From Aureispira anguillae (GTDB lineage: Bacteria > Bacteroidota > Bacteroidia > Chitinophagales > Saprospiraceae), in contig NZ_AP026867.1 in the NCBI RefSeq assembly GCF_026000115.1, positions 3,219,716-3,283,715 on the forward strand: a DNA stretch of 64,000 bases. Reading direction: 5' to 3'. The notes beneath the pieces were generated by a model that was not told where the DNA came from, ran no database searches, and was given only the letters and a program-made list of their open reading frames with translations. The first letter of the stretch is position 1, and the number at the start of each line of letters is the position of its first letter. The position numbers and the translations under genes are program-made. Positions 10,111 to 56,361 of the stretch are shown in pieces.

Positions 10111-10118
10111 TTGTTTTT

Positions 10119-10328
10119 GGTTGTTTGATAACTCTAAGTTATAAGTTATAGGTCGTAAGTCGTATGCTTAGTTCCTGTAAATACAGGACATACGACTTAC
10201 GACCTATAACTTTCTTCTAAAACCACATAAACGTAGCCTTGTTACTCACTCTGTTTGTTACTCGTCCCTCGTGAGCCAGCAAGCTGGATTCGTGAGGTCT
10301 CAAGCTCTGTTCGGGTTTTCAAAGAACC
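10119..10328. mobile_element. MITE-like element, copy A (210 bp)
   Basis: The ends are GGTTGTTTGATAAC and GTTTTCAAAGAACC, an imperfect terminal inverted repeat. Both sides carry the same 8 bp, TTGTTTTT (10111-10118 and 10329-10336), a target-site duplication. Inside is a 24-bp perfect hairpin arm pair (10143-10166 and 10189-10212) enclosing a second small hairpin TCCTGT/ACAGGA. The right half contains CCAGCAAGCTGG. No coding capacity. It is related to copies at 24983, 40611 and 44062. Confidence 0.8.
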
Positions 10329-10494
10329 TTGTTTTTTAAATAAAACGAGTGTTTTAATTCTGTCATTTACCGTACGATAAGGTATGTTATACAATGGGGC
10401 ACTATTTTTTTACGCCTGCTTACTAAAAAACATTCGATTGCAAAGTACTTCTATTTTTTTACCAAAATGCATTAAAGTCCTGTTTAAAAAATGA

Positions 10495-12542: not shown

Positions 12543-15350
12543 TTATCCTTTGACAAAACGACTTAATGTTATTCCTTGATTCGTTTGTAAAGAAAGCAGG
12601 TAAACTCCTTTAGGAAGATTAGATACATCAATGGTATTTTGTGCTCCTACCCGTGTTTGAATTGTTTTCCCAGTAATATCGTTGATCGTAATGGATTCTA
12701 TTCTAAAATCAGCCTGTGTACTCGTCGCCACAATGGTTAACTGTGTGGTTGCTGGGCTAGGGAATACAGCAATAGATACATTCTTAGTAGCCAATGTTGA
12801 GATTCCAACTCCTGTTACATTCATACAAGCAGAAGTATCCGTTCCGCAAGCAGAAGTTACCAAACAAGCATAGTTTCCATTTGTAGTAGGCGTAAAAGTC
12901 ATTGTAGTAGCTCCCGCTATAGAATTTCCATTGTCACAATCAATCCACTGATAAGTCGTTGCCCCAGCAGAAGCTGTCAAGGCAGTTCCTACCTTTGTTA
13001 CTTCAACATCAGGAGTACACAACTCCCATAATTCGAATCCTGACGTTCCGTCATCTGCTGAGAAATACAATTTATCATTGTAGATGACCAAGTTTTTAGG
13101 GTAAGCTGATTCCGAGCCAACGTTAATATTGTCCGTTACCAAACGAGGGGCATCCACTCCATTGTAAGCCCATAATTCGTAGCCATGGGTAGCATCTCCA
13201 TAGTTATAATATAATTTTCCATGGTAAAGCGTTAGCCCACTAGCACTATAGTTCAAATCCGTAGCAATAGTAGTAGGTGCATTAATGCCATCATATTCGT
13301 ATACCTGATAGGTATAGGTCGCTAAATAATAAGCTACAAAGTACATTTTATCATTAAATACCAATGCATTTCGGCGTATGGATGAACCTGAAGACCCTGC
13401 TCTAAGATCTGCAATAAGAGAAGGCGCATTGTTGCCATCATATTCCCATAGTTCCCCACCATTAATTCCATCATCTGCCGAAAAATAAAGCTTATTATTA
13501 TATACTCCAATAGGATAAGGATTACTTCCTCCACTAGCATTAATATTAGCGACCATTGTTGGCGCATTGCTGCCATCGTATTGCCACAATTCAGAACCAT
13601 TCGTTCCATCATCTGCACTAAAATAAAGCTTATTGTTAAATACTTTTAGAGAACCAACCAATCCTGCTCCTGCATTAGGATTAATATTAGCTACCATCGT
13701 AGGCGTATTGCTGCCATCGTACTCCCACAATTCTTGTCCATTGGTATTGTCACTAGCAGCCATATACAGCTTATTGTTAAATACTGTCAAATACTGAGGG
13801 TTACCGCCAAAACCACCCGTTCTAAAATCATACACTTCAACTGGCGGATTCACACCATCGTATTCCCATAGCTCTCTATCATTGTATCCTCCTTCTGCTC
13901 TAAAGTATAATTTACCATTAAATACGGTCAAATCAGTGGGATTAGAACCATTTGCTCCTTGGTAAATTTCAATCATGGTTGGCAGATTGGTACCATCATA
14001 GACCCAAAGTTCTTTTCCATGTACACCATCGTCTGCATTAAAATACATTTTACCATTAAAAGCTACCTGCCCATTTGGGTCAGAAGCCAGTGTTCCTGCT
14101 TTTAGATCGGCAACAATACTGGGGGTATTCGTTCCATCATATTGCCACAATTCTCGCCCGTGCAACGCTTCTTGTGCCCCAAAATATAAACTACCATTAA
14201 ATACAATTAAATTACTTGGCAAAGAAGAGTTGTTGCCCGCAGTATCTATGTCGTAAACCATCGTTGGGGTATTACTGCCATCATACTGCCACAATTCATA
14301 ACCTGCTGCTGCATTTCTAGCCTTGAAGTACAATACATTATTCATTACGGTTAATTCAGAAGGAAAAGAACCGCCTGATCCTGTATAAATATCATGTACT
14401 AAAGAAAAACCGTTACCATTATACGTATACAGTTCTGTATGTGTTCCTCCTGTTTCAAAAGCTTGAAAATAAAGATTGCCGTTAAGCACTGTAAGATCTT
14501 TGGGGTTTCCACTTCCTGTCCCTGGTCTAATATCCGCTGCAATCACAGGGGTGCTAGCCGTATCGTATTTCCAAAGTTCTACACCATTTGCCCCATCATT
14601 CGCTACAAAAAACAAGGTATCGTTTAGCACCTCAAAATCTGTTGGTGTTGCCGATCCTGTTGGGTTTATATCCTCTACCATAATAGGCGCATTGGTGCCA
14701 TCGTATTCCCACAATTCAATACCATCTGTAGCGTCATCTACTTGAAAATATAATTTTCCTCTAAACACTTTCATATCTAGGTAGTCATATTGGGAATAAA
14801 AAATATTCGTATTAGAAGAACTGATGTCCATAAACATAGTAGGTGGATTGGTGCCATCATACTCCCACAAGGCAACATGATTGGTGCCATCATAAGCATA
14901 AAAATATAGCTTGTTGTTATAGACGGTCAAGCTTTGAGGATAAGAGCTGGCTTGTCCTTGATTGTTAATATCTAAGACCAGCGTTGGTGCATTCGTTCCA
15001 TCATATTCCATTAATTCTCTCCCCTTCCAAGATTGATAGCCTTGATAATAAATTTTATTATTAAAGACCACCATCTCACTAGGCGCACGCCCCGTTCCAT
15101 TAAGTTGGATTCCAGGCGCTAAAGTAGGCGTATTGACACCATCATACACCCAAAAATGAGCAGTACTAGAAGAGTGTTCACTTTCTTGAATGGTAAAATA
15201 TAGTTTGTTGTTAAAAACGATGGACTCGCCTGGTATAGAAGATACTTGAGTTGTATTAATATCTGAGACCAAAGAGGCCGTTTGAGCAAATAGATTCGTG
15301 GAGAAAGATTGAATGAGCAACATCCCCATTAGAAAGGACAATTTTTTCAT
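12543..15350 (-). CDS. ELWxxDG-repeat surface protein with T9SS sorting domain
   Basis: A 935-residue secreted protein. A signal peptide (MKKLSFLMGMLLIQSFSTNL) is followed by about 16 repeats of 45-55 residues with the core ELWxYDGTNxP, each paired with a strand such as NNKLYFSADDGTNG. This probably forms a beta-propeller-like chain. Around 790-850 is an Ig/PKD-like segment with conserved cysteines, then a type IX secretion C-terminal sorting domain (from VFPSPATTQLTI to LSRFVKG). It is therefore exported by T9SS to the surface. Binding partner or adhesive target is unknown. The repeats are also visible at DNA level, so copy number may vary between strains. Confidence 0.88.
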   Translation of the reverse strand: MKKLSFLMGMLLIQSFSTNLFAQTASLVSDINTTQVSSIPGESIVFNNKLYFTIQESEHSSSTAHFWVYDGVNTPTLAPGIQLNGTGRAPSEMVVFNNKIYYQGYQSWKGRELMEYDGTNAPTLVLDINNQGQASSYPQSLTVYNNKLYFYAYDGTNHVALWEYDGTNPPTMFMDISSSNTNIFYSQYDYLDMKVFRGKLYFQVDDATDGIELWEYDGTNAPIMVEDINPTGSATPTDFEVLNDTLFFVANDGANGVELWKYDTASTPVIAADIRPGTGSGNPKDLTVLNGNLYFQAFETGGTHTELYTYNGNGFSLVHDIYTGSGGSFPSELTVMNNVLYFKARNAAAGYELWQYDGSNTPTMVYDIDTAGNNSSLPSNLIVFNGSLYFGAQEALHGRELWQYDGTNTPSIVADLKAGTLASDPNGQVAFNGKMYFNADDGVHGKELWVYDGTNLPTMIEIYQGANGSNPTDLTVFNGKLYFRAEGGYNDRELWEYDGVNPPVEVYDFRTGGFGGNPQYLTVFNNKLYMAASDNTNGQELWEYDGSNTPTMVANINPNAGAGLVGSLKVFNNKLYFSADDGTNGSELWQYDGSNAPTMVANINASGGSNPYPIGVYNNKLYFSADDGINGGELWEYDGNNAPSLIADLRAGSSGSSIRRNALVFNDKMYFVAYYLATYTYQVYEYDGINAPTTIATDLNYSASGLTLYHGKLYYNYGDATHGYELWAYNGVDAPRLVTDNINVGSESAYPKNLVIYNDKLYFSADDGTSGFELWELCTPDVEVTKVGTALTASAGATTYQWIDCDNGNSIAGATTMTFTPTTNGNYACLVTSACGTDTSACMNVTGVGISTLATKNVSIAVFPSPATTQLTIVATSTQADFRIESITINDITGKTIQTRVGAQNTIDVSNLPKGVYLLSLQTNQGITLSRFVKG

Positions 15351-18189: not shown

Positions 18190-18223
18190 AGGACAAACCC
18201 AGTTTGCTGGTTGTCAAAGAATG
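18190..18223. repeat. Degenerate fragment of the MITE-like family
   Basis: Contains CCAGTTTGCTGG followed by GTTGTCAAAGAA, resembling the inner palindrome and right end of the intact copies. No left end or target duplication could be found, so this is a remnant at best. Confidence 0.35.
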
Positions 18224-24982: not shown

Positions 24983-25215
24983 GGCTCTTTGACAAATTGT
25001 GTGCTACTAAATTATACGGTAAGATGATATTATTCTATTTGGGGATATTAGAGCATAGACCAGGTTGTTGTTAGATCGCTTCGCTTTTAGACTATATAGA
25101 TATGAATTGCAGCTATATAGTCTAAAAGCGAAGTGATCTAATTTCTAAAATCTAATCCCCAAACGGCATAAGTAAGACCATTAATTAAAATTTCCACACA
25201 AGTTGTCAAAGAACG
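24983..25215. mobile_element. MITE-like element, copy G (233 bp)
   Basis: The left end is GGCTCTTTGACAAATTGTGTG and the right end, read inward, is GTTCTTTGACAACTTGTGTG. TAGATTTT is repeated on both sides (24975-24982 and 25216-25223). Inside lies a 29-bp hairpin (25071-25099 with 25113-25141, one G-U pair). It shares its ends with copy C at 44062, but its core sequence differs. It has no coding capacity and lies directly upstream of the LRR gene. Confidence 0.82.
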
Positions 25216-35278: not shown

Positions 35279-35392
35279 GGTTGTTTTTTGACAACCCGAA
35301 CAGAGCGCTTGCTGGCTCACGAGTGATAACTAGCTAAACTAACAGCGCAGCTAAACAGAGTGAGTAACAAGGCTCACGCAGTAAACTATATA
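35279..35392. repeat. Degenerate MITE-like element (copy D)
   Basis: Begins GGTTGTTTTTTGACAACC and continues with CCGAACAGAGC, CTTGCTGGCTCACGAG and CAGAGTGAGTAACAAGGC, which match the reverse complement of the right half of copy A in the same order. A right end (perhaps GTCAAAG at 35449) and a target duplication are not clear. The remaining sequence up to the lon start has no supported gene. Confidence 0.55.
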
Positions 35393-40478: not shown

Positions 40479-40610
40479 CTTCTGTTGTTTTATTGTTTAA
40501 TTGAAGTTAGTGAATGAAGTTGTTTTAAAACAGTAAAGCTTTACGGTATTGAACAAGGTGATCAAATCTTGTTTTATTAATTAAATTTTGTATTCGATAG
40601 ATTATTTTTG

Positions 40611-40784
40611 GTTCTTTGATAACTCTATCACGACCACAGAGTAGCAGCGCAGCTAAGTAAATTGTGTGGAATCGTAAACTATCTTGCCTGCTTATTACTA
40701 CTTTTGTTATAAGTTATAGGTCGTAAGTCTTGTATTTACAGGAACTAAGCATACGACTTACAGCCTATAACTTATCAAAGAACC
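40611..40784. mobile_element. MITE-like element, copy B (174 bp)
   Basis: The ends form a perfect 13-bp terminal inverted repeat, GGTTCTTTGATAA. TTATTTTT is duplicated on both sides (40603-40610, 40785-40792). The inner hairpin is 40709-40729 with 40755-40775 (two mismatches). The left part (CAGCGCAGCTAA) matches copy D, and ATTGTGTGGAAT...TTACTACTTTTGTTATAAG matches copy C. The core is inverted relative to copy A. The right-hand target copy forms the stop codon of the anti-sigma gene. Confidence 0.85.
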
Positions 40785-43989: not shown

Positions 43990-44061
43990 TTTTTGTGTTG
44001 ATCCTAACTCGCAAAAATTGTAGGTCATGCCCCTTTTTATTACCTTTGTGTTTTTATTTAT

Positions 44062-44324
44062 GTTCTTTGACAAATCGTGTGGAATATTAAACAACCTAGA
44101 TTACTACTTTTGTTATAAGTTATAGATAGTAAGTCGTAAGTCCTGTATGAACAGAAACTAAGCATACGACTTACTATCTATAAACTTTCTTCTAAACCAC
44201 ATAAACGTAGTGCACGAGTAGTTTGTTTGGTATGGTGTACCAACGGGGATGCCTAGCAGCGAAGCTAAAAGTAGCAGAAAGCTTACCCTTTGTTAGTGCT
44301 TGTCACACGATTTGCCAAAGAACC
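44062..44324. mobile_element. MITE-like element, copy C (263 bp)
   Basis: The left end GTTCTTTGACAAATCGTGTG and the right end, read inward, GTTCTTTGGCAAATCGTGTG differ at one of 20 positions. TTTATTTAT is repeated at 44053-44061 and 44325-44333 as a 9-bp target duplication. Inside is an 18-bp perfect hairpin arm pair (44121-44138, 44165-44182). TTTCTTCTAAACCACATAAA at 44186 matches copy A. No coding capacity. It sits between the second LRR gene and the PolX-like gene. Confidence 0.88.
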
Positions 44325-44406
44325 TTTATTTATAATAGACTTCATTGCAGAGTAATTTGTCTAGAATCTGTTATTCAACTCAAAAATACCTAGCGTACCT
44401 ACTATC

Positions 44407-48697: not shown

Positions 48698-48770
48698 TCA
48701 CTCTGTTAACGACCACATGAACCCAGCTTGCTGGCTCATAAGCGATAGCGAGCAATGTAGTTAATCGCAT
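48698..48770. repeat. Degenerate fragment of the MITE-like family (copy E)
   Basis: CACTCTGTTAACGACCACAT and CCAGCTTGCTGGCTCATAAG match inner parts of copies A, B and D. No terminal repeats or target duplication are visible, so it is a decayed or partial copy. Confidence 0.45.
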
Positions 48771-48830: not shown

Positions 48831-50420
48831 TTAAGCATTAGAAAGTGTTTCTGAAATATCTACTCGATAAGCTTGAATAGCAGGAATTATAGCCGCAAAG
48901 AAACCAATCAATAAAGCACCTAAGGTTAAAAAGAATTCTTCCTTTAAGAAAATCCACCCCGAAAAAGTATACTTATAAGTCTCTTCCAGATGAGAAGCCA
49001 TAATTTCCATTCCCAAATGACTAATAATCATCCCTAACAAAAGACCAGCTATTGCTACTAAAATGCCTTCCATTATAATCATGATAAACAACTTGGCTGG
49101 CGAAGCTCCCATTACTCGCATCAATGCCATTTCATACCGACGTTCTTTAAGCGAACTGTACAAAGAAATAAACATACTAAAAGCAGATATAAGGATAATA
49201 ATAAAGGCTAAAGCACTCAAAAAATCCATTCCAACGCCCGTCATTTCCAACAAACGTTGCAATTCAATAGCTGGTTTTGCATAACCAAAATCTTCGCTAT
49301 TATCATCAATTAACATCGGAGCCTCAACCGTTGCTCGCATTGATGTATTGCCATCACTGTCTTTTTTATACTGCACCAAATAGGCTGTAACTTCTTTTCC
49401 TTCTTTAGAAATTGGGGGCAACGCCTTAGTTTTTTTATGCACATGTCCTGCATGGTCGTGCCCATCGTGATTGTGCCCTGCATGATCGTGCCCATCATGC
49501 TTATGTTCTCCATGATCGTGCGCAGCGTGGTCGTGTTCTCCATGATCGTGCGCAGCGTGATCGTGATCTCCGTGGTCGTGTGCATCATGCTTATGTTCTC
49601 CATGATCGTGTGCAGCGTGGTCGTGATCTCCATGGTCGTGCGCAGCGTGCTTATCTTCTCCATGATCGTGCGCAGCGTGGTCGTGATCTCCATGGTCGTG
49701 TGCAGCGTGCTTATCTTCTCCATGATCGTGCGCAGTGTGATCGTGATCTCCATGGTCGTGTGCATCAGAATCATGGTTATGCCCTTCTGCTCCATGATCG
49801 TGATCTTCATGCATACGCCAAACCGTTGAGACATTGGTAAGAATCAATTGATCCAAAACTAAATTTGTTTCTTTTAGAATTCCAACCACTTCATAAGCAT
49901 AGGTTTCATGTACATGTCCCCCATCCTTCACTAAACCATGAGATCCATAAAAAGTAGCTCCTAATTTTAAGCCTAATTTTTTGGCTGCACGAGCCCCTAT
50001 CACGACCTCTAAATCTTGCTCAATCAGGCGACCCGTTTCAATTTCTGCTCCAAAATGCTCAATATATTGATGATCCGTTCCGACAATTCGAAAACCATCA
50101 TAACTATCACCCAAAGCCAAAGGAATTGCCTTTTCTACGTAAGGATTTTTGGTAACTACATAAGACTCCTTTAAAGGAATATTGCCTGTTGGGGCATCAA
50201 TGTGATAAACTGAAGAAAGAATCATTTGCAATGGACTCCCTTTGGCACTAACCACCAAATCAATTTCGTCAATATTTTTGTACAATCGATCTTGAAACTG
50301 TTTGTTCAACAAAAATAAAATAGACGTCAAACTAACACCTAATGCTACCAATATGGTGCTCAATAAAGTAGCAAAAGGTTTGGCAGCCAAATATTTCCAA
50401 CTGAGTTTTAATAAATTCAT
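48831..50420 (-). CDS. FtsX/MacB-type ABC permease with a His-rich periplasmic insert
   Basis: A 529-residue inner-membrane permease. Helix 1 is about 15-38, then a periplasmic core, then three FtsX-domain helices (about 398-420, 445-470, 495-518). The motif ERRYEMALMRVMGASPAKLF is typical of MacB-like permeases. Between residues 204 and 328 is an insert built on 10-residue units such as HDHGDHDHAA and HDHGEDKHAA, holding 47 histidines in 130 residues. By topology it faces the periplasm and should bind Zn, Ni, Cu or Co. The DNA of the insert (49437-49811) is a 30-bp tandem repeat, so length may vary. The gene begins 12 bp after the flippase-like gene; no ATPase gene is adjacent. Confidence 0.85.
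   Translation of the reverse strand: MNLLKLSWKYLAAKPFATLLSTILVALGVSLTSILFLLNKQFQDRLYKNIDEIDLVVSAKGSPLQMILSSVYHIDAPTGNIPLKESYVVTKNPYVEKAIPLALGDSYDGFRIVGTDHQYIEHFGAEIETGRLIEQDLEVVIGARAAKKLGLKLGATFYGSHGLVKDGGHVHETYAYEVVGILKETNLVLDQLILTNVSTVWRMHEDHDHGAEGHNHDSDAHDHGDHDHTAHDHGEDKHAAHDHGDHDHAAHDHGEDKHAAHDHGDHDHAAHDHGEHKHDAHDHGDHDHAAHDHGEHDHAAHDHGEHKHDGHDHAGHNHDGHDHAGHVHKKTKALPPISKEGKEVTAYLVQYKKDSDGNTSMRATVEAPMLIDDNSEDFGYAKPAIELQRLLEMTGVGMDFLSALAFIIILISAFSMFISLYSSLKERRYEMALMRVMGASPAKLFIMIIMEGILVAIAGLLLGMIISHLGMEIMASHLEETYKYTFSGWIFLKEEFFLTLGALLIGFFAAIIPAIQAYRVDISETLSNA
49437..49811. repeat. Tandem 30-bp repeat encoding the His-rich insert
   Basis: Roughly a dozen degenerate 30-bp units encode the HDHG(D/E)xxHAA decapeptide of the permease. 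On the plus strand the repeat gives phased bits such as CTCCATGATCGTGCGCAGCG. Adjacent units are similar enough for slippage or recombination to change copy number. Confidence 0.85.
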
Positions 50421-55047: not shown

Positions 55048-55905
55048 ATGAGTTTGAAAGACAAATATATTAACCCACTTACTGATTTTGGATTTAAAAA
55101 GCTTTTTGGGGTCGAACCCAACAAAGAATTATTGATTGATTTCTTAAATCAACTCCTCCCTCCTATTCATCAGATTAAGCACCTTTCTTATACTAAAAAC
55201 GAACACCTAGGCAGCACCGCCCAAGAAAGAAAAGCTATTTTTGATTTATATTGCGAAAGTGCTTCGGGTGAAAAATTCATTGTAGAAGTCCAAAAAGCAA
55301 AACAAAACTTCTTCAAAGATCGGTCTGTCTATTATTCTACTTTTCCTATCCAAGAACAAGCTAAAAAGGGTGATTGGGATTTTCAACTTGCTGCTGTTTA
55401 TACCATTGGCATTTTAGATTTTGTTTTTGACGAACATAAAGATAGAGATGATATTTTGCATACTGTAAAATTAAAAGATCATAAAAACAGGCTCTTTTAT
55501 GATAAACTCACTTACATCTATATTGAATTGCCCAAATTTACCAAATCGGACACAGAACTTCAATCTAAATTTGATAAATGGCTTTATGTTTTCAGGCATT
55601 TAGCAAATCTGCAAAATCGTCCGATAGCTCTCCAAGAAAAGATTTTTGAAAAACTCTTTGAGGTTGCTGAAATTGCTAAATTCTCTCCCAAGGAAAAAGA
55701 ACGGTACGAAGAGAGTTTAAAGTATTATCGTGATTTAAAAAATGTCGTGGACGCTTCTAAAGAAGAAGGGCGAATGGAAGGAAAAATAGAAGGACGAGAA
55801 GAAGAAAAAATAGAAATTGCTTCCAATCTAAAAAAACAAGGTATTCCTATCGCTGTCATTATACAAGCAACAGGCTTATCTGAAGATATAATTGAAAATT
55901 TGTAG
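55048..55905 (+). CDS. Rpn-family PD-(D/E)xK nuclease
   Basis: A 285-residue member of the Rpn/transposase_31 family, DNA endonucleases linked to recombination and, in E. coli, phage defence. The opening DKYINPLTDFGFKKLFG is diagnostic. The nuclease core has D66 in AIFDLYCE and the ExQ motif E80-V-Q82 in KFIVEVQKAK. The helical C-terminal part (205-285) carries EGRM-EGKI-EGRE tetrapeptide units, then the conserved end NLKKQGIPIAVIIQATGLSE. An internal Met at 243 precedes this tail. A second, nuclease-less copy follows at 55972. A palindrome covers its -7 box. Length is typical for the family. Confidence 0.9.
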   Translation: MSLKDKYINPLTDFGFKKLFGVEPNKELLIDFLNQLLPPIHQIKHLSYTKNEHLGSTAQERKAIFDLYCESASGEKFIVEVQKAKQNFFKDRSVYYSTFPIQEQAKKGDWDFQLAAVYTIGILDFVFDEHKDRDDILHTVKLKDHKNRLFYDKLTYIYIELPKFTKSDTELQSKFDKWLYVFRHLANLQNRPIALQEKIFEKLFEVAEIAKFSPKEKERYEESLKYYRDLKNVVDASKEEGRMEGKIEGREEEKIEIASNLKKQGIPIAVIIQATGLSEDIIENL

Positions 55906-55971
55906 ACGGATAATCAAAGGTGACAAACCAATAATAGCGATTTCATGAAGTAATAAATAACTTTTTCACCT

Positions 55972-56361
55972 ATGTCATCAATGCTAACCATGAGCTCAGA
56001 AAATAAATACATCAACCTCCTTACTAATTTTAGATGCTCTGAGGTGGCTGAAATAGCTAAATTCTCTCCCAAGGAAAAAGAACGGTACGAAGAGCGTTTA
56101 AAGTATTATCGTGATTTAAAAAATATCGTGGACGCTTCTAAAGAAGAAGGGCGAATGGAAGGAAAAATGGAAGGAAAAATAGAAGGGCGAATGGAAGGAA
56201 AAATAGAAGGACGAATAGAAGGGCGAATGGAAGGACGAATGGAAGGACGAGAAGAAGAAAAAATAGAAATTGCTTCCAATCTAAAAAAACAAGGTATTCC
56301 TATCGCTGTCATTATACAAGCAACAGGCTTATCTGAAGATGTAATTGAAAATTTGAACTAA
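55972..56361 (+). CDS. Short Rpn paralogue lacking the nuclease core
   Basis: A 129-residue protein that keeps the first dozen residues of an Rpn protein (NKYINLLTNF, degraded) and then jumps to the C-terminal region: residues 24-58 match 204-239 of the upstream nuclease and 92-129 match its last 38. The nuclease residues are gone. The tetrapeptide EG(R/K)(M/I) occurs nine times against three in the full-length protein. The shared parts are about 95 percent identical in DNA, so the copy is recent. It could be a pseudogene, or a stand-alone equivalent of the short RpnS product that inhibits full-length Rpn in E. coli. Start ATG at 55972; M4 and M7 are alternatives. Confidence 0.65.
   Translation: MSSMLTMSSENKYINLLTNFRCSEVAEIAKFSPKEKERYEERLKYYRDLKNIVDASKEEGRMEGKMEGKIEGRMEGKIEGRIEGRMEGRMEGREEEKIEIASNLKKQGIPIAVIIQATGLSEDVIENLN
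56155..56251 (+). repeat. Expanded 12-bp tandem repeat (EGRM/EGKI units)
   Basis: Nine degenerate copies of a 12-bp unit, GAAGGRMRAATRG, encode EG(R/K)(M/I). The matching site in the upstream gene (near 55767-55803) has three copies. The frame is preserved at any copy number. Confidence 0.75.

Follow-up and report, generated by a model that had tools for sequence, protein, structure and literature searches.

The four short elements found in the window (the whole 64,000-nucleotide stretch analysed, C1:3219716-3283715 of the 7.79-Mb genome of Aureispira anguillae, hereafter the home genome) are very probably non-autonomous MITEs derived from ISL3 insertion sequences, because other members of their bacterial family, the Saprospiraceae, have ISL3 insertion sequences with the same ends on both sides. 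The family had no name in the initial annotation, and its ends now assign it to ISL3. The elements share inverted ends that closely match those of ISL3 elements from sister genera, are flanked by target duplications and occur in many intergenic copies; one of them probably has an empty site in a congener.

Elements in the window

All four elements have GGTTCTTTGACAA-type inverted ends and perfect 8-bp A/T-rich duplications (Table 1). Re-examination of the window recovered every one of the four elements with inverted ends and exact flanking duplications that the initial annotation had described. The internal long hairpins also proved real, and an inverted-repeat search of the window found hairpin arms in copy 3 as well. 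The outermost base of the end is variable (G, C, A and T at 81, 39, 6 and 4 of 130 ends, respectively). With this base counted in, the duplication of copy 4 is 8 bp long and copy 3 starts at 40610; the apparent 9-bp duplication at 44062 is thus an 8-bp duplication plus the variable first base. The duplication length, previously given as 8-9 bp, is mostly 8 bp, and the 9-bp case in the window falls away, but an element at C1:5184823 is compatible with a 9-bp and not with an 8-bp duplication. With up to three mismatches tolerated, the 13-bp end by itself is about as common in the window as in shuffled sequence (33 observed versus 31.55 expected), and the case therefore rests on the pairing of ends, the duplications and the copy number.

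Table 1. Elements, hairpins, target duplications and remnants in the window (window coordinates)
Feature	Position	Strand	Description
MITE copy 1	10119..10328	.	210 bp; subfamily A hairpin; cassette at right-hand end; ends GGTTGTTTGATAA / GGTTCTTTGAAAA; exact 8-bp duplication TTGTTTTT
Copy 1 internal hairpin	10143..10212	.	perfect 24-bp arms, loop of 22 nt; inverted-repeat search
Copy 1 target duplication, left	10111..10118	.	TTGTTTTT
Copy 1 target duplication, right	10329..10336	.	TTGTTTTT
MITE copy 2	24983..25215	.	233 bp; subfamily B, AGATCGCTTCGC hairpin; duplication TAGATTTT
Copy 2 internal hairpin	25071..25141	.	inverted-repeat search
MITE copy 3	40610..40784	.	175 bp; cassette CTCTATCACGACCACAGAGTAGCAGCGCAGCTAAGTA at left end; duplication TTATTTTT
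MITE copy 4	44061..44324	.	264 bp; subfamily A; element of the original finding
Copy 4 target duplication	44053-44060 and 44325-44332		TTTATTTA, 8 bp
Copy 4 internal hairpin	44120..44183	.	
Degenerate copy	35283..35384	.	one end and cassette sequence; BLAST with 65 catalogued copies, best E 1.7e-14
Cluster of cassette words	48709..48753	.	matches catalogued copies, E 8.2e-9; no recognisable end
Single end-like motif	18211..18223	-	2 mismatches; weak remnant at best

At least three degenerate copies had been proposed in addition. The BLAST result supports the one near 35279, although a second end was looked for at 35283..35384 and none was found, and the one near 48698 is reduced to cassette sequence. 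The third, near 18190, contains cassette-like sequence besides the end-like motif but has no BLAST match to the 65 catalogued copies at E<=0.001. The window also holds other repeats. An array at 13147-15166 has a spacing of mostly 138-156 bp and a conserved GG...CCATC.TATTCCCA-like core. Arrays of 15-bp and 12-bp units are present at 49407-49796 and 55656-56355; the second of these (AAAGAAGAAGGGCGAATGGAAGG...) would, if coding in that frame, encode a charged Glu/Lys/Arg-rich repeat.

Copy number and target duplications in the home genome

BLAST searches of the home genome matched element 44061 to at least 78 stretches (40 of 164 first-look candidates scored) and element 24983 to at least 59 stretches (40 of 110 scored). 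Genome-wide, 159 occurrences of the 12-base end KTTCTTTGAYAA were counted, versus 18 of the reversed control. From ~0.64 Mb of the home genome, comprising the window, loci around matches or ends and seven further 20-kb pieces, with duplicate loci excluded, 65 elements of 128-362 bp were catalogued. In this catalogue, whose copies were picked by their ends and selected partly by their duplication, the duplication is exact in 42 copies, has one mismatch in 13 and has more in 10. A or T occupies 305 of the 336 duplicated bases of the 42 exact copies. At positions 2-13 of the 130 ends, the commonest base is present in 100 to 130 ends.

The duplications were also evaluated in 50 pairs picked on ends only, with flanks unseen. 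An exact 8-bp duplication flanks 30 of the 50 pairs, and 39 have at most one mismatch; shuffling of the flanks 200 times yielded a mean of 1.23 exact duplications and a maximum of 4. In the examined part of the home genome, the comparison of copies and their flanks that the initial annotation had suggested as a check returned common ends and, for most pairs, exact duplications. The elements combine three features of a MITE, namely shared inverted ends, a target duplication of fixed length and a short body without a transposase gene.

The copies look like relics because the six best full-length relatives of element 44061 in the home genome are only 81-86% identical to it (40 of 164 candidates scored). 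Copies of subfamily B are more alike: element 24983 has a full-length match of 91% identity at best (40 of 110 candidates scored).

Coding capacity and genomic context

The elements have little coding capacity, as had been noted from the window: the longest closed ORF among the 65 copies encodes 61 aa, and the median is 26. The flank is too short for context in 13 of the 65 copies, leaving 52 testable copies. The earlier statement that all elements lie in intergenic space holds for almost all of them, but three of the 52 overlap a predicted ORF by >60 bp. The neighbouring genes of testable copies are arranged in tandem in 28 cases, divergently in 16 and convergently in 4, and one case could not be classed. 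Predicted coding sequence makes up a fraction of 0.85 of the window and the seven 20-kb pieces, whose intergenic DNA consists of 16,871 bp between tandem, 7,460 bp between divergent and 3,330 bp between convergent genes. Nearly all copies thus lie between genes, with no evident bias towards one arrangement of the neighbours, and the arrangements are close to the make-up of the intergenic space.

Orthologous sites in a congener

The congener G003 was compared over 1.6 of its 7.31 Mb. No element match was obtained in G003 among the 12 of 90 candidates scored, and the exact 21-base end is also absent. Seven catalogued loci have both flanks in the examined part of G003, and none of the seven holds an element there; the best end match in the corresponding intervals has 3 to 5 mismatches in 13 positions. 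The two flanks of window element 10119 adjoin each other in G003, in a single register and on either side of one diverged target copy. When joined, they match G003 at 36 of 54 ungapped positions, compared with 34 or fewer for 300 random 920-bp pieces of G003, and this is the best-looking of the seven loci. The left flank alone (20/30) and the right flank alone (16/24) pick exactly adjoining G003 positions. This locus, one chosen from seven and with a modest score, is probably an empty site. At the other six loci the element is absent and the spacers are too diverged for the junction to be read. Empty sites inside other repeats were searched for with 71 joined-flank queries, which returned, across a junction, self-matches and two weak matches only (80% over 50 bp and 70% over 171 bp); the latter were not accepted as empty sites.

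Shared ends with ISL3 insertion sequences

A search of a public genome collection, from which records of the home genome were possibly excluded, for paired ends ~195-255 bp apart identified 30 loci. Twenty-seven are in Bacteroidota, of which 12 are titled Aureispira and 15 are titled as other Saprospiraceae, Saprospirales, Chitinophagales, Bacteroidetes or Bacteroidota. An exact 8-bp duplication is present at 16 of the 30 loci, all among these 27; the remaining three (L163, L173 and L176) have no duplication and appear unrelated. Elements at L053-L057 in the congeners G006 and G001 have counterparts of 80-92% identity in Aureispira-titled contigs; the query with L052 had no match. The exact 21-base end was found in three of 298 family genomes, namely the home genome, G081 and G209. 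The G209 end (L150) stands by itself at the boundary of a gene, with no partner seen. In G081, which belongs to another genus, a minimal element of ~110 bp with these ends lies at L149:1500-1609, and a second end-like motif is located just upstream.

Twelve MITE-bearing genomes were searched for an ISL3 transposase; two matched, one of them by fragments only, and the other ten did not. The matching locus, seen in two copies of one assembly (L195 and L199), contains a transposase gene with an in-frame TAG within a 1256-bp element that has CGTTCTTTGACAAATAGTGTGGA at both ends. Its ends match the home MITE consensus at 21 and 20 of 24 positions. The protein piece matches PF01610 (9.6e-33), PF14690 (4.1e-15) and the ISL3 model NF033550 (212 bits, cut-off 180), and Pfam and NCBIfam place it in ISL3.

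A relative of this transposase, queried with its intact first 286 residues, is present in 15 of 398 family genomes. Of the 20 loci returned, four (L199, L201, L202 and L203) deviate from the 14-base core by no more than one mismatch at either end, and L200 has at most two mismatches per end. The best end pairs of the other 15 loci have 4 to 8 mismatches in total, or there is no pair; L204, with a transposase 40% identical, has no matching ends, and L211 has one only. The matching-end insertion sequences span 1.25-1.28 kb, and L200-L203 have open frames of 352-431 aa. The elements at L201-L203 are 1267-1279 bp long, and both of their ends begin with GGTTCTTTGACAATTTTTGCAAA, the first 21 bases of which are found at both ends of the MITE loci L177, L180, L184 and L192 from other Saprospiraceae. 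The sharing between MITEs and insertion sequences was seen over no more than about 24 bp of end. The search for a full-length insertion sequence with the same ends, also suggested in the initial annotation, was answered by ISL3 elements of other Saprospiraceae.

A perfect 8-bp duplication is present at none of the four matching-end insertion sequences with readable flanks (L199, L200, L202 and L203); L202 has 7 of 8 duplication bases, in poly-T. Exact 8-bp duplications were found at three more distant ISL3 loci, of which L213 was found by its ends, while L205 and L209 (18 and 19 of 22 end matches) came from a search that had the duplication as a requirement. Two features expected of an ISL3-derived MITE, an end match with ISL3 insertion sequences and an 8-bp duplication, are both present in the elements of the window.

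Search for a partner transposase in the genus

A partner transposase in the same genome is usual for ISL3 MITEs, although it does not define them and can be lost. The ISL3 transposase model PF01610 had no match in the home genome, and a query with the L195/L199 protein likewise returned none. Neither the home genome nor any of eight other genomes of the genus that were searched yielded an ISL3 transposase, and the MITEs therefore look orphaned in the genus. The view that they were moved by a transposase encoded elsewhere agrees with the shared ends, the duplications, the scarce coding capacity and the intergenic placement, but the enzyme was not found in this genome and was located only in other genera. 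The IS1595 transposase (PF12762) was not found in the home genome, which is rated 98.6% complete; an SSU rRNA model also had no match in it.

Long elements with the same ends and an exact duplication were sought around the first 100 of the 159 end sites (C1 up to ~4.82 Mb), and none was found in loci L032-L038, L051 and L088-L127; loci L128-L134 were viewed for open frames only. An end pair at C1:3409881-3412450 was rejected as a long element; it is set among host-type genes, not a transposase. Ten translated frames beside unpaired ends were judged by eye to be host-like genes.

Mosaic structure of ends and interiors

The 13-bp core runs straight into the inner end sequence in 72 of the 130 ends by a simple motif test. 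In several other ends, a cassette composed of words such as CTCTATCACGAAGTA, CCCGTAGGCTCACGCAGTA and GTAGCAGCGAAGCTAA is inserted after the core, and such end cassettes are also observed in some Aureispira-titled contigs. Some cassette words are present far from elements as well: CTCACGNAGTA is found 41 times and AGCAGCGNAGCTA 46 times in the 1.6 Mb of G003, a sequence that contains none of the hairpin-arm words tested and the MITE end only twice. Chains of the words CTCACGAAGTA, TAGCAGCGAAGCTAAC, ACTAAAAGCGCAGCG and CCACGTAG are hairpin-like, combinatorial and dispersed in the genus (for example, at L252:14054-14180 and in the window at 35307-35384 and 48709-48753). They occur without MITEs (L219-L298 of G003) yet also inside MITE ends, and bring to mind the GC clusters of mitochondria.

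In 38 subfamily A hairpins, the two arms of one element differ at a mean of 2.9 of 24 positions, compared with 3.5 across elements. A value as low was reached in 9 of 10,000 permutations, and kinship of the copies could also produce this similarity. The hairpin loops are present in both orientations. Outside the genus, the interiors are unrelated to those of the home genome, whereas the end shells are common across genera. Several outside interiors are strong palindromes, such as that of L180 (35 of 45 pairs), and others contain only short ones in an ungapped test. The strong palindromes include L170:39-241, a Saprospiraceae element of 203 bp that has the same ends and is palindromic almost throughout (84 of 85 arm pairs).

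One conceivable, though doubtful, reading of these end shells with interchangeable palindromes is that ISL3 ends in Saprospirales were repeatedly closed around unrelated inverted repeats and that the palindrome itself was needed. The palindrome, for example as a cruciform or hairpin, would then help to join two ends or drive copying. Such a need would explain interiors that differ between genera yet are often palindromic, the co-varying arms and the two loop orientations.

Mobilization and alternative explanations

The ends and duplications suggest that the GGTTCTTTGACAA(A/T)T... inverted ends were most probably recognized by an ISL3-type DDE transposase, supplied in trans, which placed the elements in A/T-rich intergenic DNA with an 8-bp stagger, the repair of which would have left the 8-bp duplication. 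The enzyme would since have been lost from the genus, or would have been present only transiently, and the copies left decaying. It is rather unlikely that these ISL3 MITEs are instead still mobile today through a divergent transposase missed by the models or through an ISL3 element that enters the genome from time to time. Transposase relatives in 15 of 398 family genomes make entry by transfer possible, and the 42 perfect duplications among 65 copies (a set chosen partly by duplication) and the 91% relative of element 24983 (40 of 110 candidates scored) point in the same direction. Present mobility is opposed by the distance of element 44061 from its six nearest full-length relatives in the home genome (only 81-86% identity; 40 of 164 candidates scored), by the lack of a PF01610 match there and by the lack, in the loci scanned, which cover part of the genome, of a long element that combines these ends with an exact duplication.

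Several insertion-sequence families make 8-bp duplications, and the genomes of the genus were searched without an ISL3 transposase being found; the elements might accordingly be MITEs of another such family (IS1595, IS6, IS1 or IS66), with the match to ISL3 ends arising by convergence. This is very improbable given that five Saprospiraceae ISL3 elements (L199-L203) carry these ends on both sides, with two mismatches per end in 14 for L200, and that four of them retain long open frames; the home genome, moreover, lacks a match to the IS1595 transposase. Least credible of all is a conserved function in regulation or as RNA (terminator, antiterminator or sRNA), with the copies maintained by selection and not by mobility. 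The long hairpins, with arms co-varying to a degree reached in 9 of 10,000 permutations, and the intergenic placement would suit such a function, as would the end GTTCTTTGACAA (for example, at window 44062-44073), which we take to resemble the rRNA boxA antitermination sequence. Selection for such a function is opposed by the target duplications, the probable empty site (one locus of seven, with a modest score), the absence of an Rfam match in the window, the gene orientations near the intergenic make-up (28 tandem, 16 divergent and 4 convergent), the lack of an element match in G003 (12 of 90 candidates scored) and the lack of an element at all seven orthologous G003 loci. Within ISL3-derived MITEs, the boxA-like ends, which face inward at both sides, could nevertheless lower the polarity of transcripts crossing an element.

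Comparison with known systems

An unnamed repeat family of the Saprospiraceae is now placed with ISL3, which accounts for a class of hairpin-rich intergenic repeats in the annotation of these genomes. The MITEs are abundant in a genus where a transposase of their own family was not found, which makes it possible to test how long orphaned MITEs persist and what their palindromic interiors do. BOX and ERIC type repeats are, like the elements described here, modular, mosaic, hairpin-forming, intergenic and present in many copies, but the present elements differ in having conserved transposon ends and target duplications. ISL3 insertion sequences (PF01610 / NF033550) have closely matching ends, and three distant members have 8-bp duplications; they are 1.25-1.28 kb long and contain a transposase, whereas the window elements are 175-264 bp long and do not. 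Among the titles listed from open-licence literature, none describes these MITEs in the Saprospiraceae or in Aureispira.

The BrickBuilt MITE of Porphyromonas gingivalis is likewise from Bacteroidota, reported as strictly intergenic and built with a repeat-containing interior, but it has a minisatellite inside, and the available portions of the two sources state no link to ISL3 (PMC4596501; PMC10969869). The main text of the review, in its accessible part, does not mention ISL3 (PMC10969869). The closest counterpart, from Microcystis aeruginosa PCC 7806, is a 187-bp MITE associated with ISL3 that has GGCTCTTCG ends and 8-nt duplications; for this element, the accessible part of the report describes a strain-specific insertion in a gene and an ISL3 partner in the same genome (PMC11448079). 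As described there, it resembles the present elements in being short and mainly intergenic, lacking a transposase and having a stem-loop, 8-nt duplications and ISL3-matching ends, and the Microcystis ISL3 elements also have 8-nt duplications (PMC11448079). Compared with that account, the elements in Aureispira have GGTTCTTTGACAA ends, more diverse interiors, end cassettes and a partner not found in the genus. The cassettes, the palindromic interiors and the absent partner are the less ordinary parts. Since an ISL3 MITE with 8-nt duplications is published for Microcystis, the Saprospiraceae elements are a known kind of thing, and they add another example to the ISL3-linked MITEs already known from the part of that report available (PMC11448079).
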